Positions 11,813 through 24,866 of a stretch of DNA of 28,513 nt are shown here, piece after piece. This DNA comes from a virus. The stretch is taken from the IMG/VR virus record IMGVR_UViG_3300010885_062288, positions 1-28,513 of that record; one strand, written 5' to 3'. Each line of letters begins with the position of its first letter. Position 1 is the first letter of the stretch. The position numbers and the translations under genes are program-made. The notes under the pieces were generated by a model that had not been told where the DNA came from, ran no database searches, and saw nothing but the letters and a program-made list of their open reading frames with translations.

Positions 11813-12784
11813 TTAAGATAAACCAAACATTTCAAATAAATCAGTTTGCACATCTTTTCCAATTTCAGGAAGAGACCAACCAATAGCTTCATACAAACGC
11901 TCCGTTGGTTGAGTTACTAGCTTAGAAAACATCTTATCCCAGTCAATTTTAATTCCAAATTCTTCTGGAAGCGTTGAAACATAGCTAATTGCATCTAGTC
12001 CATATTTGTTTTTAGCACAGTATAACTTTTTGACTTTTTGTGCAGATTGGATTGCTTCATATTTGTCGTCAATTTTGTGTTCCTTAATAAGAATATTGTA
12101 TGCAATAGCTCCTTTAACATGGGAAGGAGTTCCTTTTTTATACTTGTATAAAGAAGCTCCTTCTGCGTACTTTTCTAAGTTATTAATAGAGGTTCTGGAA
12201 GCAATCTCGTTTGGATCAAGCTTTTGAAACTGATCATAGCTAGTTCTATATACTTCATTTGATTGTTTAAAATCTTGAGTGAGTAAAGAAGTTTTAATAA
12301 TGTTTTCGATAAACTTTTTAACCTTTTTGGGAGTAGTAGAGCGAACAAGTTCAATTCCTGTATATTTAAATTTATCTACAGCTACTCCTTCTTCGTCTAA
12401 CACATGAAGAATATATCGCTTCTTTTGAAGGAATATTCCTACGTCAGAAATAATTTCTCGTTTAAAAACAAAACGAGGATCAATTGAAAACAATTCTTTA
12501 CGAGCCCACTTTAATATTTCTATATTAACATGCTCATCTAGTTTATTTACAATTGAATGTACTTCCTCAGTAATCTTATTGTCAATAGTTAAAGGAATAT
12601 TTAGTTTATGCAATATAGGATTGATGCTGATGTAAACAGAATTGTGCACCAATATATCATTAGCAAAAAACGTATGCTCTGTATCATCAGACATTTCAAT
12701 GTCGTATACATATTCGTCTTGAAATTCCCCAATATGTTCTACAGAGGTAATGTCAGCTACTTCATAGTCAAATAAGTTATTCAT
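11813..12784 (-). CDS. gp43: DNA polymerase family B, C-terminal half, with C-intein
   Basis: This is the second half of the fractured replicative polymerase (323 residues). Residues 1-48 are a C-intein with block F (EYVYDIEMSDDTEHTFFAND) and block G (ILVHN). The terminal His47-Asn48 is followed by Ser49 as the splice nucleophile. From Ser49 the C-extein begins SVYISI, exactly what should follow YGDTD in motif C. It contains the primer-binding KKRY at 121-124, the thumb domain, and a C-terminal QTDLFEMFGLS. That last segment matches the clamp-binding tail of T4 gp43 (SLDFLFG). On its own this half lacks the exonuclease and most of the palm and should be inactive until trans-spliced. The start overlaps the homing endonuclease stop by 8 bases. 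T4 gp43 has 898 residues; the spliced product here would have 851. Confidence 0.94.
   Translation of the reverse strand: MNNLFDYEVADITSVEHIGEFQDEYVYDIEMSDDTEHTFFANDILVHNSVYISINPILHKLNIPLTIDNKITEEVHSIVNKLDEHVNIEILKWARKELFSIDPRFVFKREIISDVGIFLQKKRYILHVLDEEGVAVDKFKYTGIELVRSTTPKKVKKFIENIIKTSLLTQDFKQSNEVYRTSYDQFQKLDPNEIASRTSINNLEKYAEGASLYKYKKGTPSHVKGAIAYNILIKEHKIDDKYEAIQSAQKVKKLYCAKNKYGLDAISYVSTLPEEFGIKIDWDKMFSKLVTQPTERLYEAIGWSLPEIGKDVQTDLFEMFGLS
12641..12784 (-). other. C-terminal half of a split intein (48 residues)
   Basis: The fragment opens the C-terminal polymerase gene at its own ATG. It shows HINT block F and block G with penultimate His and terminal Asn, then Ser +1 (VHN/S). It carries no endonuclease domain. 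The partner N-fragment lies at 13855-14214. Confidence 0.92.
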
Positions 12785-13799
12785 TTAAAAAATCTAAACA
12801 CTGTTGAATTACCTTCTCTTTATCTTTCTTGTATTCACTTTCCCAGATTAATAAGACTTTACAACCATGAACATTTTGCAAAATATTGTTTTTTTGCAAC
12901 GTGTATAAATAAAGGTCTCCAGCAGTGGCGTTTGCTTGTTTGATAAAATATTCAGGCACATAAATGTTAGGATTTCCGTGCCAGTAATCTCCAGCAAATT
13001 CTATGATTTTTTTTGAGGAAGCACAATAAAAATCCACAAATAATGTTTTGTATCCTTTTTTTGCAAAGAAGTATTCGTGATTTTTAGAGTCAAAGAATAT
13101 AGTACTATGCATTGTTTCAGGTAGATTGTTTAAAATTTCATTGAACAGATTATTTGCTAAAATAGACTGCCTTCTATACTGAGATTGTTTTTCACACAAC
13201 CTTTCCCATTTTTCTTTTCCTAAAATTTCTCCATGTCTTGCAATGAACGTATCAATGCTATTACCTTTTTTTGAACATACTTCTTTAAACTTTTGTGCAC
13301 CTTCTACTGAACCATATTTCTCAATAAAATAGTCTTCTGTGACACCAGCATAACTTTGACGTTTACGGTATTCATTCCATTTCTTAGTTCCCTCTTCTAC
13401 TCCGTGTCTTTTAACAAAATTTTGTTTTGTTGATGCTCTTTTGTTATTGTATTCATCAAATTTTTCTTTAGTCCATCCATATCTTTGTTGTTTATATTCA
13501 AAACTGTTACTAAAGGCTTGTTTTTGTTTATATTGTTCCCATCTAATATTTCCTTCTTTCTCTCCGTATTTTTTGATCATATTAGCTAAAGTTGCTTTTC
13601 TGAGATCTCTAACATTAAAACATGAAAGATCAGTTTTTGTTAAACTATATTTAGCAACGTATTGGTCAAGATTCATTCCATGTGATCGTTTGAGGTGAGT
13701 ATGGGTGATTTGAGGATGCTTTGTATTACATTCATGACATACCACAAACGTGTTGGGATCTAATTCATTTACTTTTGTTTTAGTATTTTTGTTTTGCAT
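12777..13799 (-). CDS. Free-standing Vsr-like homing endonuclease inside the fractured polymerase
   Basis: This 340-residue protein has three parts. Residues 21-41 form a ROS/MucR-like zinc finger: Cys21, Cys24, His35 and His40, with THLKRSHGMNLDQYVAKY as in such fingers. Residues 74-206 hold four spaced copies of a 22-residue unit with the core K/R-Y/H-G-x-x-x-G-x-x-K/R-W/F (starts 74, 128, 158, 185), probably helical DNA-reading modules. The C-terminal nuclease resembles very-short-patch-repair enzymes: LFVDFYC (Asp256), KIIEFAGDYWHGNP (Glu267, His274) and LLIWESEYKKD (Glu320). This family is known from fractured phage genes with split inteins, where it sits between the two halves. It likely cuts intact polymerase genes so that the whole arrangement spreads. 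It overlaps the downstream half by 8 bases, so all three genes may be co-transcribed. Confidence 0.88.
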   Translation of the reverse strand: MQNKNTKTKVNELDPNTFVVCHECNTKHPQITHTHLKRSHGMNLDQYVAKYSLTKTDLSCFNVRDLRKATLANMIKKYGEKEGNIRWEQYKQKQAFSNSFEYKQQRYGWTKEKFDEYNNKRASTKQNFVKRHGVEEGTKKWNEYRKRQSYAGVTEDYFIEKYGSVEGAQKFKEVCSKKGNSIDTFIARHGEILGKEKWERLCEKQSQYRRQSILANNLFNEILNNLPETMHSTIFFDSKNHEYFFAKKGYKTLFVDFYCASSKKIIEFAGDYWHGNPNIYVPEYFIKQANATAGDLYLYTLQKNNILQNVHGCKVLLIWESEYKKDKEKVIQQCLDFLNE

Positions 13800-13851
13800 A
13801 ACATTATTACTTATGCTGACACTGCTTATTTTTTTGTGTCTTCATACACTG
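13800..13851 (-). other. Short gap between polymerase N-half and the endonuclease
   Basis: The 52 bases contain a partial inverted repeat (GACAC ... GCAGTGTC around an A-rich loop) and AGTAATAA four bases before the endonuclease ATG, a weak relative of the start-proximal motif. A nine-codon reading MTVYEDTKK that overlaps the polymerase stop also fits here but is probably chance. Confidence 0.4.
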
Positions 13852-15942
13852 TCATTTTAAAACAATCATTTTATCTGTATCAATATCGATATCAGCCGGA
13901 GCAATTCTTATTAATTTACCATCTCTCAATACCATGCATCCGTGATCCTCCGTCATAATCACTTCTTTTCCTCCAGCAACAATCTTATATTTCTTTTTAG
14001 AAACTTTGTGCCGTATTATGTTTTTAATGTTTCCCCAACCGGCTGTTTTTTTGTCTGAATAAAACGTGGGGACTTTTATGTGCTTGTTTTCTACATCTAC
14101 TATTTCATGTCCTTTGAATGTGTAGAATCTTTTAGAGTCCTTAAAGTTTTCATATAGAGTCTCAATTGGTAGCGATCCTAAATTAGTTTGAATGATTGTG
14201 TCTCCAACTATTGAATCCGTATCCCCATATTTGGTAATGGACTCGTTAATGTCGTGCACGTCTCTTACATAGTCGTCTAAAATAGTTCCACCAGCTCTTG
14301 CAACGCTTTGGCCAGTCATTGTAATAGACATGGCGTTATCAATGTCCATTAAAGAAGAATGTTTGTTTGCAAATGTACCATAAATGGAATTGAGTAGAAT
14401 TTTTAAAGTATATTGCAGAGTATCAAAATAAGTGAGTTTTAAAAAACTTTCTCTATCTTTTTTCTCAGATTTTTTGAGTTTTGTTAATTGATTCTTTGCT
14501 TCTACACGTTCTTTATAAATTTCATCAATAAGATTTGGAATTACTCCTTTTGATTTTTGGGAATATAGAACACCGGCTTGAGACAAAGACACTTTCTCAG
14601 TAGTCAAAAACTTTACAAATTTATCAGCAGACAATTTGTGAATTTTGCCATTCATTAGTCTCAAAGAAACTTCTTCTCCTGCTTTATAATCTCCCTCGAC
14701 TACTTTGCCGAGTTTAGTTTCTGGTGAAATATTGAGAGTAATAATTGTATTTGGATACAACGAGTTTACGTCAAAACTCACAATTGCTTTTTGAATTCCC
14801 TTTTCAGGATCTCGAACTAATCCTCCTTCATAAGACTCTCGATCCATTTTATTAGGAAACGTCGGAATAATATAACCTTGTTTTGAAGCTTGAATGGCTA
14901 CTGCTCCAGTTACAATAGAAACTTTACCAAGAGCTGCTTCGAAGTTTGTACAACCTTTATAAGAAAGCATTCGAGCAATTTCAAGAAACTTGAGTTTCTC
15001 TTCAAGTTTAACCAGAAGATGAACGTCTTGAATATTATAATCAACAAACAGTTTCCAGTCCGTGTGAGCTAGTTCTCCTAGACTAACTGCGTTGTAAGCA
15101 ATCTTACCTTCGCCAAGCTCAAGCTCTGAAATATAATTGAGACTAAACGATTCCTTTTCCCCAGGAGAAAAAGTTTTATACAGATCCATATAGTCAATTA
15201 AAGAAATTCCATTAATTGACCAAATAGTTGTCTCCTTTCCCATATCCGTAAAAACTTTACGGGATCTAACCACACTTACAGGAGAAAGCTGATTAATGAA
15301 GTCATCTCCAAACAACCTCATGAATCGGTTAATAATATAAGGAAAATCAAACCCACTACTGTTCCAACCGGAAGCAATGTCTGGATAATCAGACTTCCAG
15401 AAATCTACAAATTGTAGAACCAAATCCTGTTCATCTTTGCATCGATGGTATATGCAATTTGGAATAGTTGGAGTGTATTGTTCCCGCAATCCCCACGTGT
15501 GAGTAGCTTTTGTTAGCGTGTCATAAATTGTAATGAGATTGATTGGTACTGCAGCTTTTTCTGGAACAGGAAAATGTCCTGGATCACAGGTCGTATCTAC
15601 TTCAATATCTAGCAAGAATATTTTAAGAGGAAACTGAGAAAACTCAGGATTTCCATTTTGATCCTTGAACATATCAATTAAAAATTGTTGTTCTGGACTA
15701 AGATTGTGAAACAATCGATTATTAGAAGTTCCTGTTACAAACTTTCTCCGTTCAATACTATTTTTAAACGTTTTTTTAAGTAAAGATGTTTTAAAAATAG
15801 ATGTAGCGTCAGCAGCATCCTCCTTTTCGAGATATAAGTATGGTCTGAAATTAATTTCAGTGTCTATTCTGTCTCCATCTGCAGACCATGTGCGCAAAAA
15901 TATGGATTCATTGAACGGATTATATGTGGCAGCACGATACAT
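13852..15942 (-). CDS. gp43: DNA polymerase family B, N-terminal half, with N-intein
   Basis: This is the first half of the replicative polymerase (696 residues). Residues 1-576 are polymerase. Exo I is LDIEVD with Asp112 and Glu114 (same numbering as T4), Exo II is GWNSSGFDFP (192-201) and Exo III is YNIQD (302-306). Motif A is DVNSLYPN (391-398), motif B KILLNSIYG (514-522), and motif C stops after YGDTD (572-576). Residue 577 is Ser1 of an N-intein that runs to the stop codon. Proofreading residues are intact, so the spliced enzyme should be a full T4-type polymerase-exonuclease. Without splicing the protein has an interrupted active site, because the second catalytic Asp lies right at the junction. 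It follows a glycosyltransferase gene by 15 bases; AAGGA lies about 11 bases before the ATG, one of the few purine-rich leaders seen here. Confidence 0.95.
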   Translation of the reverse strand: MYRAATYNPFNESIFLRTWSADGDRIDTEINFRPYLYLEKEDAADATSIFKTSLLKKTFKNSIERRKFVTGTSNNRLFHNLSPEQQFLIDMFKDQNGNPEFSQFPLKIFLLDIEVDTTCDPGHFPVPEKAAVPINLITIYDTLTKATHTWGLREQYTPTIPNCIYHRCKDEQDLVLQFVDFWKSDYPDIASGWNSSGFDFPYIINRFMRLFGDDFINQLSPVSVVRSRKVFTDMGKETTIWSINGISLIDYMDLYKTFSPGEKESFSLNYISELELGEGKIAYNAVSLGELAHTDWKLFVDYNIQDVHLLVKLEEKLKFLEIARMLSYKGCTNFEAALGKVSIVTGAVAIQASKQGYIIPTFPNKMDRESYEGGLVRDPEKGIQKAIVSFDVNSLYPNTIITLNISPETKLGKVVEGDYKAGEEVSLRLMNGKIHKLSADKFVKFLTTEKVSLSQAGVLYSQKSKGVIPNLIDEIYKERVEAKNQLTKLKKSEKKDRESFLKLTYFDTLQYTLKILLNSIYGTFANKHSSLMDIDNAMSITMTGQSVARAGGTILDDYVRDVHDINESITKYGDTDSIVGDTIIQTNLGSLPIETLYENFKDSKRFYTFKGHEIVDVENKHIKVPTFYSDKKTAGWGNIKNIIRHKVSKKKYKIVAGGKEVIMTEDHGCMVLRDGKLIRIAPADIDIDTDKMIVLK
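13855..14214 (-). other. N-terminal half of a split intein (120 residues)
   Basis: The fragment begins with Ser directly after the polymerase motif YGDTD. Block A is SIVGDTIIQTNLGSLPIE and block B is VIMTEDHGCMV with the conserved Thr664-x-x-His667 (polymerase numbering). There is no endonuclease domain. It is somewhat longer than well-known phage split N-inteins. It should pair with the C-fragment at 12641-12784. Confidence 0.93.
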
Positions 15943-15957
15943 TGCCTATATATTCCT

Positions 15958-17202
15958 TTATGTTTTTGGACAAATCAAGCTAAATATTTGATCTTTAGAA
16001 CCAAACGGAGTGAAGTATATTTCGTAGTGCTTCATTAGATTGTGTTCGTGATCTAACCAAAACTTTTCAGCATGAGCTCGAGCTTTTTTACATTGCTCTG
16101 CATAAGTGCTTTGATTTTTGAGAGTTGTTTTCAAACAATCAATAAATTCATCTCCAGTTTTATATTTTAAGAAAGCATCTTTGTATGTAACCATATCTGG
16201 GCAAGCACAAGGCATTCCAATTGCTCCAGCTTCAATTAATTTGATATTGCTCTTACAACGATTAAAATTGTTATCTTGTAGAGCAGCAAACGTCATTTGA
16301 GCTCCAGAGTTTGCCATAGTTTCTGCAAAATCTGGCAACTGAACCCATGGAAAGAATTTTATATGCCCACTTTCAATATAAGGTTTTAATGGCAAAGGAT
16401 GAGAACCATAAAAATGCCATTCAAACTCTGTGCGTGTTTTAATAATATGATTTACTACTGCTGCAAAATCATCTTGTTGGTTAACTTTGTTTAATACATC
16501 AACATGAGTACCAGAAGCAAATATAGCAATGACTGGTTTCTTTTTATTCTTTTCGTATTTTTTAATCAAGTCTCCAAGATTGTAATAGCGATCAAACCAC
16601 CATTTCATTAAATAATTTGGAACTACGGTAACGTTTTTATTACCTGACTTTTCAATCATGTAGTCTTTAAAATAATCACACGTAACCACAATTTCGTCCA
16701 TAGTGGATAAAATTTCTTTAATAGAATTTTGAATTTCGTTTGATGTAAATGCTCCTCTGTTACGATTGTACATAGGAATGTCTTCCGCAAAGATAACATC
16801 GTCTACTTCATAAATTAACTTAGTCTTAGTCTGTTTAGATAATTCTTTTAATCCCTTAACAAATTCTTTTTGTTGAGGAGTGGCCTGCCGTTGAAATTTA
16901 ATTGCTTGAACTGTTCCATAAAATCTAGGATCTAAGATCATTGCAGTAGATTCTACAACTACCGCTTTTTGATATAAATTTAATAAAAAGTTTGGAGCCA
17001 TACAGCGATAGTAGCCACAACCTCCATAATCAGCAAGATAATTTAAAGCTCGCTTTAATCCTTCTCCTGGCACTGCTGGAGGAGGTACAGCTGGAGACGA
17101 AGAAGTTTGTTGTTGGGCATATTGTGGAGACGGGACACCAATTGGCATACCTAAAGGAGCTCCTGGAAGATTTTTGATACCAATCTGAACGGATGTTGTC
17201 AT
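15958..17202 (-). CDS. Glycosyltransferase, GT-B fold (GT4-like)
   Basis: The 414-residue protein has a flexible Pro/Ala/Gln-rich N-terminus (about 12-46) and then a GT-B-like enzyme. The first domain contains LADYGGCGYYRCMAP (56-70), a glycine-rich acceptor-side loop, and LIYEVDDVIF (129-138). The second has IFASGTH, WHFYGSHPLP and the sugar-nucleotide binding stretch SNIKLIEAGAIGMPCACPD (318-336), where Glu324 matches the first Glu of the GT4 E-x7-E motif. The donor and acceptor are unknown. It lies directly upstream of the polymerase N-half and after another glycosyltransferase, so it extends the sugar-transfer block beyond gp46. The start is supported by the CTAATTAC-N4-ATG motif. Confidence 0.82.
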   Translation of the reverse strand: MTTSVQIGIKNLPGAPLGMPIGVPSPQYAQQQTSSSPAVPPPAVPGEGLKRALNYLADYGGCGYYRCMAPNFLLNLYQKAVVVESTAMILDPRFYGTVQAIKFQRQATPQQKEFVKGLKELSKQTKTKLIYEVDDVIFAEDIPMYNRNRGAFTSNEIQNSIKEILSTMDEIVVTCDYFKDYMIEKSGNKNVTVVPNYLMKWWFDRYYNLGDLIKKYEKNKKKPVIAIFASGTHVDVLNKVNQQDDFAAVVNHIIKTRTEFEWHFYGSHPLPLKPYIESGHIKFFPWVQLPDFAETMANSGAQMTFAALQDNNFNRCKSNIKLIEAGAIGMPCACPDMVTYKDAFLKYKTGDEFIDCLKTTLKNQSTYAEQCKKARAHAEKFWLDHEHNLMKHYEIYFTPFGSKDQIFSLICPKT

Positions 17203-17206
17203 GCTT

Positions 17207-17214
17207 GTAATTAG
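17207..17214 (-). promoter_or_regulatory. Start-proximal motif CTAATTAC before a glycosyltransferase gene
   Basis: The minus strand reads CTAATTAC-AAGC-ATG in an intergenic gap. It shares the motif and the four-base spacing with three sites near the terminase genes, 13 kb away. Confidence 0.4.
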
Positions 17215-17232
17215 AAGAATCTTTATTAAAGT

Positions 17233-18210
17233 CTAGTTGAGGAATAATTTTTCAAACTCTTCTTCTGTAGAAAAACTTGGATTTGGAGGATTTAAATTGT
17301 TTAAAGTGTGTTTTTGAGCAGCTCTATGTTTGAAAGATATTCCTGCATATTTTTCGTAATCCGTTAGAGTCCTAACTGGACCAAATCCGTATTCTTTAAA
17401 ATCAATTTCTTCTGTAATACCATCCATTTTGAATAAAATTCTGTTTCGTTTGTGACAATTGTCGTTTTTAATCCACCATTGCTTATCGTCATCCCATTGT
17501 TTAATTCTGTTGTTTCTTGTATATTCGTGCCAAGCAACTACTTTATTAGGATGAAACAAGTCATATCCCCATGTAAAAGATCTTACTGCTAAAGAAATTT
17601 CTTCTCCATGAAAGTAATATTCGGGATCATAGGGAACTTCTTTACAAAATTGGCCAGAAGTAAAACAAAAATGCGCAGAAAAGAAACGAGCTGGAATAGG
17701 TTCAGCTAATTCTTTAGGATCCGTAACATAAGCGGGCATAAAAAATACTGCTCCTTCAGGAATAAATTTATCAAAATTCATTTTCCATGGATTTTTAACT
17801 CTTTCTGCAGGATCGTTTTGAGGATTATAACTAGGAATATAACTAGTTATTAGAGGTTTTTTGTGACCTTTTAATTGAAGAGATTTGTACATTTCTATTA
17901 ATGTAATATCCCAATCTTTAGCAAATCTGTGATGACTATCTAACATCAATGTAAATTCTTCTCCATCATATTTTTGTTGAATCAAACTGCGAGCCCAACA
18001 CGCTCCTTTGCTTTCATTAAAAGGAATGTCTATAATTTTGAATGCAGGATTGTTCAAATATTTTGTTAATGTTTCTTCTGGTCCGTGTTGCCAAGCAACA
18101 CAAAAAATTAAATTTTCTGAATGAGATGCATTATTAATACAACTATCCAACGTTGGAATTAATTCTGGATCTCTATAAGAGGCTATTTGTACAAATATTT
18201 TGTCTTTCAT
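17233..18210 (-). CDS. GlcNAc-transferase-like glycosyltransferase (GT60/Skp1-type)
   Basis: The 325-residue product opens with IFVQIASYRDPELIPTLDSC, the hallmark of the family that includes the UDP-GlcNAc:polypeptide transferase of Dictyostelium Skp1 and many phage and bacterial relatives. The metal and sugar-nucleotide site is LDSHHRFAKDWD (90-101), a DxH variant of DxD. Further family features are ARFFSAHFCFTSG, YFHGEEISLAVRSFTWGYD and VVAWHEYTR. The probable activity is transfer of GlcNAc or a similar sugar to a protein or glycan; the acceptor is unknown. One base separates its start from the gp46 stop, so it is translationally linked to that recombination gene. Confidence 0.86.
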   Translation of the reverse strand: MKDKIFVQIASYRDPELIPTLDSCINNASHSENLIFCVAWQHGPEETLTKYLNNPAFKIIDIPFNESKGACWARSLIQQKYDGEEFTLMLDSHHRFAKDWDITLIEMYKSLQLKGHKKPLITSYIPSYNPQNDPAERVKNPWKMNFDKFIPEGAVFFMPAYVTDPKELAEPIPARFFSAHFCFTSGQFCKEVPYDPEYYFHGEEISLAVRSFTWGYDLFHPNKVVAWHEYTRNNRIKQWDDDKQWWIKNDNCHKRNRILFKMDGITEEIDFKEYGFGPVRTLTDYEKYAGISFKHRAAQKHTLNNLNPPNPSFSTEEEFEKLFLN

Positions 18211-21564: not shown

Positions 21565-22509
21565 TTACGATAAGAAAATTTTATTAAAACGTTCCATAAC
21601 AATTTCCGGAGTATATTCTTGTACTAAACTTTTATATGTTCCAGCTTCTTGTTTGGTTAATTTAAGGTCTTTTAATAATTCTAGTAAACTATTAAAATCG
21701 TTGTACCAAAATCCTTTATCTTTCATCATAGATATATGATTTTGATCTAAGCCGTCCTTCCAACTAATGACTGGTTTATCGTGAAACAAAAATTCACTGA
21801 TTGCTAATCCAAAACTTTCCCCGTGACTTCTAGCATGAATCATATAATCACATGTATTAATAAAATTAGATTTATGCTGTAGATTGTATGTCCCTTCTAC
21901 AAAAATAATATTTGAATGAGAAGGACCAAACTGTCTAGTATTCATAAACAAAAATATTAAATCTGGTCTAACTTCCAATGCTTTATATATTGCTTTATGA
22001 ACAAACGGCAAATCAAATTCATTGAATCCTCCATGTCTTCCTATTACAATTGAATCTGAAGAAATGTTTAATTTGTCTCTAAAGTGTTTGGTTGGAGATG
22101 GCATATTAACAATGTGCGGAACATATGCTCCAGCCATGTTTAGTTTACTAGCTAACCATTCCGAAATGTAGCAATACACGTCTCCGTGTACGTCTTTATG
22201 CTGAAAGACAACGTGTATTAAATTTCTAATACCAGGAACAAGTTTGCCATCTCTATCTCCAGCTTTTGGATAGTATATATGGGTTATGTTTTTTTCTTTT
22301 ATAAAGGAAAAACAATCTTCAAATTTATTGTATAGAAAAACTTCAAACCTATCCTTAAATTTTTGAAGTGTTTCTAAATTATTGTTTCCATCAGAAATAA
22401 TGTATGACTTATTGCCCAAGATTGTCTCGTTGTATACGGCATAATCATAAAGAGCGACTTCTGTTCCTCTTATGCCTAATTGATTTGAATGAAATGCTAT
22501 ATTTTTCAT
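21565..22509 (-). CDS. Glycosyltransferase, GT4-like
   Basis: The 314-residue GT-B protein begins MKNIAFHSNQLGIRGTEVAL; the GTE turn corresponds to the glycine-rich loop that contacts the acceptor. In the second domain, IVIGRHGGFNEFDLPF (155-170) opens the donor-binding half, and ARSHGESFGLAISEF (226-240) carries the E-x7-E pair (Glu231, Glu239) that defines retaining GT4 enzymes. The sugar and acceptor are unknown. It overlaps the preceding GT2 gene by 4 bases (ATGA type), so the genes are likely made as one unit. Confidence 0.87.
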   Translation of the reverse strand: MKNIAFHSNQLGIRGTEVALYDYAVYNETILGNKSYIISDGNNNLETLQKFKDRFEVFLYNKFEDCFSFIKEKNITHIYYPKAGDRDGKLVPGIRNLIHVVFQHKDVHGDVYCYISEWLASKLNMAGAYVPHIVNMPSPTKHFRDKLNISSDSIVIGRHGGFNEFDLPFVHKAIYKALEVRPDLIFLFMNTRQFGPSHSNIIFVEGTYNLQHKSNFINTCDYMIHARSHGESFGLAISEFLFHDKPVISWKDGLDQNHISMMKDKGFWYNDFNSLLELLKDLKLTKQEAGTYKSLVQEYTPEIVMERFNKIFLS

Positions 22510-23255
22510 TTGTATTCTTTAAATTTTCTATATCCTCCAGATTTAAAAGGCTCTTTGTTCCATTTATTTAGTAACAAATCTCCTTGTTCATTCATATTTT
22601 TAGAAGTGTATTTTAACCGCTCTTCAGCATAAGCATTAGATTGGCCAGATTGATGAGCTATACAAGCTCCTGTATGAACTCCGTGATTAAATCCACATCT
22701 TTCTAAAGACATAATATAATCATTATCCTGATAAAAGAAGTAAAAAGTTTCATCTAAATAACCTATAGTGTTAAATATAGATCTTCTGCATGCAAATGAA
22801 CACCCAAACATGTGAAGAGAAACTTCGCTGCCATAATAAAGTTTGTTTTCAGAAGGAAGATACAATTTGCTATGCCTGTGCCAGTTTCTATCAACAGGGG
22901 AAATAGAGTGTACATTCAAATTAGAATTAAATTCATTAAGAATTGTTTGTAAGCAATTAGGTTCAACAATTAAATCATTATTTGGTCCAAATACAAATTC
23001 TGCTTCACATTTAGCTAAAGCAATATTATAAAATTTGTTATAATTAAATTGCTTATTGGGTTTAATAACCTCCACTTTAGGTTGATCATAACAGCCCTCA
23101 AAATCTGAATTAGTTTCAACTACAAAAATTTTATTAATAATATCATCAGCCGTATTAATATAAGAATTAATGCAATTTTTTGTTACATTGAATGTTTTAT
23201 TATCAACAACTAAAGATAAAACAATGATATCAAATTTGTTATTTAAATTGGTCAT
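22506..23255 (-). CDS. Glycosyltransferase family 2 protein
   Basis: This is a 249-residue GT-A enzyme. FDIIVLSLVV (8-17) is the first strand. FVFGPNNDLIVEP (88-98) holds Asn92-Asn93-Asp94 in place of the DxD metal motif. YLDETFYFFYQDNDYIMSLE (166-185) is the acceptor and catalytic-base region typical of rhamnosyltransferase-like GT2 proteins (usual form 'FDE-F-ED-D'). A Gln-Asp replaces the common Glu-Asp, so the catalytic base may be Asp177 or Asp179. It overlaps its upstream neighbour by 17 bases. Confidence 0.85.
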   Translation of the reverse strand: MTNLNNKFDIIVLSLVVDNKTFNVTKNCINSYINTADDIINKIFVVETNSDFEGCYDQPKVEVIKPNKQFNYNKFYNIALAKCEAEFVFGPNNDLIVEPNCLQTILNEFNSNLNVHSISPVDRNWHRHSKLYLPSENKLYYGSEVSLHMFGCSFACRRSIFNTIGYLDETFYFFYQDNDYIMSLERCGFNHGVHTGACIAHQSGQSNAYAEERLKYTSKNMNEQGDLLLNKWNKEPFKSGGYRKFKEYK

Positions 23256-24015
23256 ACAAAAACGTCTCTAATGGTTTGATTACATCATATTGATGGAGAA
23301 CATAAGGTTCTCTGTTATTAATTGTTACTTTGTCCTTATCTAAAGTCACTACAGAATTTTCAAAATGAGCTAAATTAGCTATTTCTAAATTGTTCAATAT
23401 ATTATATCTAATTTTATCAAAATATATTACTTTGTTTAAGGAAGCTTGATCAATATTTTGATAATTGCCAATTCGGGAAATAATTTGTGTCATATCGGCA
23501 CACATTTCTTTAAGTAACGCCGTAGCTCCAGCTAGTTCTCCTAAAATACTTCCGCCATTTAGTATTTCGTATTTTTTTAACAAATTATATACATCAGAAT
23601 TATAACATAAATTAATCCAAGTAGTATTAGTTCGACAGTTAGATATTAAAAAATTTTCACTAGTTACATACGGTTTTGAATCTATTATTAATTTAAATAG
23701 ATTTTTTTGAAAACAAAGATCTGTAAAGTCACACAAATACACTTTTGAACTTTTACAATAATGTTTACAATACAAATAAAAGAAAATAACCTTTAAAGTA
23801 TAAGGAGAAATTGTAACATCTACGTTGAATTGTTTAGCTATTTCATCAGATTCAATAATATTGACATCATTTGTTTTTAAAAAGTCTATTAATTCTGGAC
23901 TCAAATTTGAGCTGATAATTGTTAGTTTATCACAAAATCTCCTAGCACTTTTTACAAAAACCTTAATACCACTGTTTAATTTATATCCTTTTCCAAAAGT
24001 AATAATTTCGTTCAT
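23239..24015 (-). CDS. Putative GT-A glycosyltransferase with a DxTD motif
   Basis: The 258-residue protein has VYLCDFTDLCFQKNLF (92-107), in which Asp96-x-Thr-Asp99 takes the place of the DxD metal-binding motif. The pattern 'V-x-x-x-D-x-x-D-x-x-F-Q' is common in GT8-like and related nucleotide-sugar transferases. Further on, NGGSILGE and NYQNIDQASLNKV fit the GxxxG and DQ-x-x-x-N features of such enzymes. The start ATG overlaps the upstream GT2 stop by 4 bases. The sugar is unknown. It could also be a related non-catalytic domain, but the DxTD and DQ features favour an active enzyme. Confidence 0.7.
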   Translation of the reverse strand: MNEIITFGKGYKLNSGIKVFVKSARRFCDKLTIISSNLSPELIDFLKTNDVNIIESDEIAKQFNVDVTISPYTLKVIFFYLYCKHYCKSSKVYLCDFTDLCFQKNLFKLIIDSKPYVTSENFLISNCRTNTTWINLCYNSDVYNLLKKYEILNGGSILGELAGATALLKEMCADMTQIISRIGNYQNIDQASLNKVIYFDKIRYNILNNLEIANLAHFENSVVTLDKDKVTINNREPYVLHQYDVIKPLETFLYDQFK

Positions 24016-24866
24016 TTTCTTTTCTTTCTTAATTCTTTAAGGATTTGTACTACTTGATCTTCTGTATGAAGAGGGGGTTGGTTTGGATAATAACCATGTT
24101 TTTTCTTGTAAATTTCTCTACCAACAGCTACCTTTTTCATCCACTCCGTCTTGTCTTTAGCAATAGAAGAATTTTCAATTGCTCCTGGAGCTTCTTCAAT
24201 TAGTTCGTGACTATTTGCTAAATCAGCAAACCACCAAAAAGGAGGATGGTATCCAGCTTTAATAATATAATTTGTGCTAGACACGTGCTCCCAACAATTG
24301 TCAAAATCCTCGCACATATAACCTAAACCTTGTTCTAGCAACGTTTTTGTAAAAAAAGAAAACATTGCTACCGTGTGCTCATACAGAGCAATCTTGCACG
24401 TTTTATAATCTACAATTAATTTTGGATTTGGTTCTGATTTTTCGTCCAGCAAATGTCTGTTGTGTAAATCAAAATTTTTAATAGTTTGTTTGCGATTAAA
24501 AGGAGATCCTGGACCATAGTTAAAATGATGAATTCCACTGACCTTATAAGCTTCTACGTATTTCTGAAAAATTGACTCATCTTTAATAACCATATCATCT
24601 TCAATAATAAAAATATAATCACAATTTTGATTAAGAAGATGCTTCATTGCTCTATTTTTAGATTTAGCTACTCCCTGATTAGTTTCATTTTGAAGCCATA
24701 TACCAAAAGATAAAGAAAATTCTTCAATAGGTTTTCCGTCGTTTACTACAACCAATTCGTTAATAACATCTCTGCAGGGATCTAAACTTTTTAAGAGGCC
24801 CTGTAAATAAGGAAGTCTTTCATGCGTAACAATACCAACGCCTATTTTTTCTTGCTTTTTACTCAT
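24012..24866 (-). CDS. Glycosyltransferase family 2 protein
   Basis: This is a 284-residue GT-A enzyme. IGVGIVTHERLPYLQGLLKS opens the fold, ELVVVNDG (37-44) binds the nucleotide, and NQGVAKSKNRAMKHLL (63-78) is the conserved 'N-x-G-x-x-x-x-x-N-x-A' helix. IFIIEDDMVI (85-94) carries Glu89-Asp90-Asp91 as the DxD-type metal site. It ends in a basic tail (KELRKKRK). It overlaps the gp47 stop by 8 bases and is the first gene of the glycan block, so it is co-expressed with the recombination genes unless an internal promoter is used. The acceptor is unknown. Confidence 0.88.
   Translation of the reverse strand: MSKKQEKIGVGIVTHERLPYLQGLLKSLDPCRDVINELVVVNDGKPIEEFSLSFGIWLQNETNQGVAKSKNRAMKHLLNQNCDYIFIIEDDMVIKDESIFQKYVEAYKVSGIHHFNYGPGSPFNRKQTIKNFDLHNRHLLDEKSEPNPKLIVDYKTCKIALYEHTVAMFSFFTKTLLEQGLGYMCEDFDNCWEHVSSTNYIIKAGYHPPFWWFADLANSHELIEEAPGAIENSSIAKDKTEWMKKVAVGREIYKKKHGYYPNQPPLHTEDQVVQILKELRKKRK

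Follow-up and report, generated by a model that had tools for sequence, protein, structure and literature searches.

What holds a replicative DNA polymerase together when its gene is broken within a catalytic motif? The question is raised by the window analysed here, the whole 28,513-nucleotide stretch of IMG/VR record IMGVR_UViG_3300010885_062288, a 28.5-kb genome fragment of an uncultured T4-like phage. The fracture is confirmed: a family B polymerase gene is divided between two open reading frames (ORFs), each of which carries one half of an intein, and a nuclease gene lies between them. We read the locus as a fractured gp43-type polymerase gene whose two products would be joined by a mobile split intein of the Aes123 PolB1 type and, judging from sequence, put the probability of this reading at about 0.88. 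Its anatomy, its homology to the trans-splicing Aes123 intein, the invariant catalytic residues, the exact empty sites of relatives and the recurrence of the same gene order in other contigs are the grounds for it.

Anatomy of the broken polymerase gene

The three ORFs lie on the minus strand and encode, in the order of transcription, 696, 340 and 323 amino acids. With the N-terminal and C-terminal intein halves called IntN and IntC, and the flanking polymerase parts called exteins, the features are as follows.

13852-15942, minus strand: N-half ORF of the polymerase, N-extein plus IntN (recognised by Pfam, PHROG and sequence comparison)
14215-15942, minus strand: N-extein, residues 1-576 of a T4 gp43-like family B polymerase, with the exonuclease domain and the palm as far as YGDTD in motif C
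14215-14259, minus strand: putative co-conversion tract, N side, codons 562-576
13855-14214, minus strand: IntN, 120 amino acids, with Ser1 (polymerase position 577), block A SIVGDTII, block X His69 and block B MTEDHGCMV (T88-E-D-H91)
13852-13854, minus strand: stop codon of the N-half
13800-13851, minus strand: gap of 52 bases from the N-half stop to the nuclease start
12777-13799, minus strand: putatively Vsr-like, homing-type endonuclease gene, 340 amino acids
12777-12784, minus strand: 8-base overlap ATGAATAA, the nuclease stop inside the C-half start
11813-12784, minus strand: C-half ORF of the polymerase, IntC plus C-extein
12641-12784, minus strand: IntC, 48 amino acids (VYDIEMSDDTEHTFFANDILVHN), with block F VYDIEM...HTFFAN and block G DILVHN (His47-Asn48)
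12575-12640, minus strand: putative co-conversion tract, C side, codons 577-598
11816-12640, minus strand: C-extein, polymerase residues 577-851, from Ser+1 VYISI (phrog_262, phrog_1918)
11813-11815, minus strand: stop codon of the C-half

The exonuclease (PF03104) and DNA_pol_B (PF00136) families exceed the Pfam cut-offs in the N-half, and phrog_262 (DNA polymerase; E = 4.5e-139 in the N-extein) spans both halves end to end, covering residues 11-579 of the first and 49-320 of the second. Joining the exteins (576 + 275 residues) gives an 851-residue protein with an unbroken motif C (YGDTDSVYISI), in which the exonuclease and polymerase domains of a T4 gp43-type family B enzyme are complete. 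The initial annotation had placed residues 1-576 ending in YGDTD, Ser577, the 340-residue nuclease, the 48-residue C-intein, SVYISI and the 851-residue product exactly here, and all of these coordinates and residues were reproduced. Its call of a fractured family B polymerase is likewise borne out by the Pfam and PHROG matches on the halves, the joined product and the empty-site relatives described below. The overlap ATGAATAA of the nuclease stop with the C-half start suggests that the two genes are translationally coupled.

Profile searches recognise the two intein halves unequally. NCBIfam intein_Cterm (TIGR01443) exceeds its cut-off in the C-half, and both intein_Nterm (19.2 bits against a cut-off of 24.5) and Pfam Intein_splicing stay below theirs. 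When IntN and IntC are fused, they match the crystallised Aes123 PolB1 intein (9HTH) with E = 5.5e-19 and PolB16 with E = 3e-7. Across 12 IntN and 9 IntC sequences, S1, H69, T88, D90, H91, IntC residues D28, H47 and N48, and Ser+1 are invariant. The halves thus carry every mark of a class 1 intein with a serine nucleophile, namely Ser1, the block B TxxH, the penultimate histidine, the terminal asparagine and Ser+1. His69 is invariant in the alignment that includes Aes123 and also in contiguous relatives; it is the counterpart of the block X histidine of cysteine-independent inteins (PMC13014065), whose role in such inteins is also treated in PMC10189870. In the strict sense the intein is not cysteine-less, because IntN contains one non-catalytic cysteine, Cys93 (HGCMV), next to nucleophiles that are serines.

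A natural contiguous relative (L010) was modelled from an alignment of 13 natural contiguous inteins. The prediction is a HINT domain with a predicted local distance difference test score of 94, and its best PDB match is again 9HTH (template modelling score 0.87, E = 1.5e-14). Together with the insertion codon YxDTD/S and the 120-residue IntN, this homology in sequence and fold places the window's intein in the Aes123 PolB1 type, and the family-wide conservation of the catalytic positions upholds the original split-intein call. IntC has a net charge of -13 and the last 60 residues of IntN one of +4, a pattern said to underlie split-intein capture (PMC11923092). As a trait of split inteins alone, charge segregation was rejected: contiguous inteins show the same pattern (P 0.3-0.7), so it cannot separate the two states.

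The mechanism envisaged at the outset very likely holds for the window. IntC, which is acidic, would associate with the basic half of IntN, and Ser1, Asn48 and Ser+1 would then drive protein trans-splicing to yield the 851-residue polymerase. The nuclease would cut intein-free alleles near the site, and repair would copy the whole IntN-nuclease-IntC cassette together with a short flank, which amounts to homing.

The nuclease, probable homing and competing explanations

The nuclease in the gap combines an N-terminal Ros/MucR-like zinc finger, tandem KYGxxEGxxxWxxY helical modules and a C-terminal nuclease domain with the conserved motif IEFxGDYWHxNP. A probable relation to Vsr, which the initial annotation had asserted, is supported by homologues in Aeromonas phages that sit in the same gap and are annotated in GenBank as VSR endonucleases. 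In the direct comparisons, Vsr and related nucleases are among the top profile matches, at E 0.76-0.94 (about 0.9 for Vsr itself), which is not significant alone, and 6 of 21 relatives match MTES_1575. The gap has other occupants as well. An endonuclease of about 575 residues, Vsr/MTES_1575-like, replaces the usual 340-residue one in three relatives (L109:4281-6005, L148:4259-5980 and L144:2701-4443), and a TnpB-like gene (OrfB_IS605, Cas12f1-like TNB) stands beside a truncated nuclease in a fourth (L117:4268-5479).

Forty-eight relatives came from a scan of viral contigs with the N-half, and the intein and nuclease alignments, used as queries in further scans, yielded 137 distinct IntC matches (one scan of IntC relatives kept the best 80 of 131). 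Of 43 polymerases that could be used, 30 have an empty site at precisely the codon of the window's insertion, where their exteins join directly, and among them are the three nearest to the window (87, 86 and 85% identical in the N-extein); the intein-bearing L009 is only 79% identical. On the extein tree the site changes between empty and occupied at least five times. Sliding windows of 20 codons, 416 in all over the full gene, served to compare the window with the contiguous-intein relative L010 and with the nearest empty relatives. The junction (codons 562-598) is covered by each of the nine that favour L010 most strongly. When this tract is removed, the tree places the window among the empty genes (support 85/72), and in a tree of the tract alone it groups with L010 (92). 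Such a tract is what co-conversion of the flanks during homing would leave, and this trace and the patchy presence of the element are why we favour homing.

Several points weigh against the overall reading. The supports in the tract test are moderate, and the Foldseek comparison of the nuclease with the Vsr fold (probability 0.91, E = 0.22) is below significance. Because the record covers only 28.5 kb, a second polymerase may exist elsewhere in the genome of the window's phage; in the complete genome of Aeromonas phage Aes508, the fractured polymerase is the only one found.

The rival that survives best grants that the split intein splices and takes the nuclease for a passenger, or for an ordinary free-standing enzyme with no part in moving the cassette. 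It draws on the other nuclease families, and even the TnpB-like gene, that occupy the same gap in relatives. We regard it as unlikely: the 340-residue family recurs in the gap across dozens of lineages, and the patchy distribution and the co-conversion-like tract both point to homing.

It is very unlikely, in our judgement, that the halves instead form a working two-subunit polymerase without splicing, with the intein halves as inert tails, in the manner reported for the endonuclease-split NrdA of phage Aeh1. T4-like phages do have split enzymes that function unspliced, gp43A/gp43B splits without an intein are known (PMC2988022), and relatives of the window have a second break near residue 493. 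Yet the catalytic intein residues are all invariant across lineages with only 40-50% extein identity, tails left unspliced would sit within motif C, and contiguous relatives hold the same intein in one chain, where splicing alone can restore the motif. More improbable still is a decaying, non-functional polymerase of a defective phage. Relatives with decayed nucleases exist (L044, L047), but in the window both halves and the nuclease are open over their full length with conserved catalytic motifs, and the gene is located in a full T4-like replication module.

An assembly chimera of unrelated reads, which the initial annotation had feared, has next to no probability left: exact-match scans of viral contigs for the window's own junctions found no second assembly (near-identical records may fall outside the scan), but at least seven independent contigs (L009, L017, L037, L038, L039, L041 and L042), with polymerases roughly 45-80% identical, and named phage genomes share the three-gene order and reading-frame layout, and the empty sites of relatives are exact. 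A scan of cellular genomes gave only five matches, most of them in metagenome-assembled genomes. One further contig (L023, IMGVR_UViG_3300009151_008366) matches the window at 99.8% identity across polymerase residues 1-437 and stops inside the N-extein before the junction.

A probable route from split to contiguous inteins

Nearly all of the 137 IntC matches fall within motif C of PolB. They use two insertion sites, YGDTD/S and YGD/TDS, which are separated by two codons. The window has the former, with Ser+1, and so does not belong to the pol-c allele (YGD/TDS, Thr+1); L003, L057 and other relatives carry their insertion at YGD/TDS. Split inteins with the nuclease account for 85 of the matches, those with a fragment of it for 10 and those lacking any nuclease of this family for 13; a further 24 are contiguous, and 5 have no IntN paired with them. 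The nuclease is thus found in the gap of 85 of the 108 split inteins, against none of the 24 contiguous ones, and on independent branches the association of nuclease and split state holds in about 6-7 pairs, with none the other way.

The contiguous inteins are scattered tips of the intein tree. Supported branches force at least eight changes of state, and the best tree has 18. Under a Markov model restricted to split-to-contiguous change, the log-likelihood (lnL) is -55.2, the same as under the two-way model, and under one restricted to contiguous-to-split change it is -65.1 to -67.8; with the loci that only the nuclease scan had brought in left out, the two one-way models give -42.6 and -51.1. 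The advantage of about 8-13 log units favours repeated fusion after nuclease loss. Once the nuclease has decayed, the gene would stay split for a time, until deletion of the nuclease remnant fuses the halves into a contiguous mini-intein. Telling against this direction are the poor resolution of the intein tree, in which 25 of 126 branches are starred, and a two-way model with a contiguous root that fits nearly as well. On balance we lean towards the following view of phage PolB inteins: the split, nuclease-bearing cassette is probably the mobile form, and the contiguous mini-inteins, ancestral as they look, would be its descendants through nuclease decay and deletion of the remnant, so that the usual contiguous-to-split assumption would have been reversed repeatedly, with some phages carrying two such inteins in one motif, Thr-Asp between them.

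Two further tests of direction were set aside. A methionine kept at the fusion point is suggestive in L010 only, most linkers having no clear relic start, and DNA alignment of contiguous and split pairs revealed no clean deletion scar, the sequences being too diverged.

Tandem inteins, at YGD/TD and TD/S with the dipeptide Thr-Asp as their spacer, are seen in L130:4666-7173 (both contiguous), L154:3219-6960 (contiguous and split) and L210:5390-8368 (split with nuclease, and contiguous); L130 and L154 each have two intein_Nterm stretches. The split PolB of Desulfovibrio phage 7757 (L004:3935-8473), which has the nuclease, contains a block-B-like VTEDHG in its C-half besides one in the N-half. 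An extra, intein-free polymerase break near window residue 493-524, comparable to gp43A/gp43B, occurs in separate lineages: L047, the Aeromonas phages L001/L002 and Vibrio phage henriette 12B8 (L006). In two large contigs, L099 (140.7 kb) and L132 (249.2 kb), the N-terminal polymerase part is located apart from the intein-bearing part, and some polymerases are therefore scattered as well as split.

Known systems and genomic surroundings

The window has the plan of a fractured gene: a host gene in two ORFs, an intein half on each, and a free-standing endonuclease gene between. Dassa et al. (2009) reportedly described such genes (gp41, NrdA, NrdJ, IMPDH and others), in which the gap holds a free-standing gene for a Vsr-like homing endonuclease; theirs differ from the window in host gene and intein allele. 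The initial annotation was right that fractured genes were known, and missed that the same polymerase arrangement was known too, for example in Aes123, Aes508, AS-gz and MIJ3. The parallel it drew to the Nanoarchaeum equitans polymerase, which is likewise split with an intein in PolB motif C, is not the closest. In Nanoarchaeum equitans, Mimivirus and the archaeal pol-c inteins, insertion is at YGD/TDS, before Thr+1; this lies two codons upstream of the site used in the window, YGDTD/S, and the Mimivirus intein has an in-frame LAGLIDADG domain. The Nanoarchaeum equitans halves are not known to have a nuclease gene between them.

Closest are the Aeromonas phages Aes123, Aes508, Aes509, Aes516 and AS-gz, which share with the window the host gene, the codon YxDTD/S and the order N-half with IntN, VSR-type endonuclease, IntC with C-half (annotated as such in GenBank for Aes123, Aes508 and AS-gz). 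Aes123 PolB1 also has a 120-residue IntN and the Ser1/Asn/Ser+1 set. Its intein trans-splices in vitro (PMC11923092), has a crystal structure (9HTH) and is under engineering (PMC11923092, PMC13014065). The window is far removed from these phages, with only 26-30% identity in the polymerase and 34% in IntN. It differs from Aes123 in the one non-catalytic cysteine of IntN and in an IntC of 48 rather than 39 residues, and from Aeromonas gp43 more widely in lacking a further break (gp43A/B) and the GIY-YIG endonuclease or group I intron of some of those phages.

Pseudomonas jumbo phage MIJ3 also has an endonuclease gene between two PolB ORFs and a split intein, for which the published account notes a resemblance to the contiguous mini-intein of Salicola phage SCTP-2 (PMC6892783); MIJ3 belongs to another phage group, its nuclease is called HNH, and the likeness rests on the published description rather than on the insertion codon. 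Three PolB split inteins added in 2025, from the T4-like Campylobacter phage CP21 and from marine sediment metagenomes (LCGC14, GOM-OPS-1), have IntN of 115-120 residues as in the window, and one of the PolB split inteins in that report splices efficiently (PMC12707363); their sequences are different, and LCGC14 and GOM-OPS-1 are likened by description only. Because the Aeromonas phages, MIJ3 and CP21 precede it, the window is a deeply diverged member of an arrangement already known.

The interest therefore lies less in this single locus than in its relatives. The addition made here is a natural series, drawn from some 130 phage loci, in which the site is empty, split with the nuclease, split with the nuclease decayed or absent, or contiguous. 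Such a series, at one codon of an essential gene, opens the question of how split inteins arise and what becomes of them to direct test. It also adds new natural IntN/IntC pairs by the dozen, among them closely related inteins matched in split and contiguous form (L119/L121, L010/window). The window itself adds one deeply diverged phage PolB split intein to a class under development as protein-ligation tools.

The neighbouring genes form a T4-like module: clamp, gp32-like single-stranded DNA-binding protein, gp41-like helicase, UvsX, gp46/47-like nuclease, late sigma factor, UvsW-like helicase, UvsY, terminase and tail tube. Searches of the window found no tRNAs, no Rfam match and no nucleotide similarity to named phages. 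Interspersed in the replication module are several glycosyltransferase-like genes, at 15958-18210 and 21565-24866.

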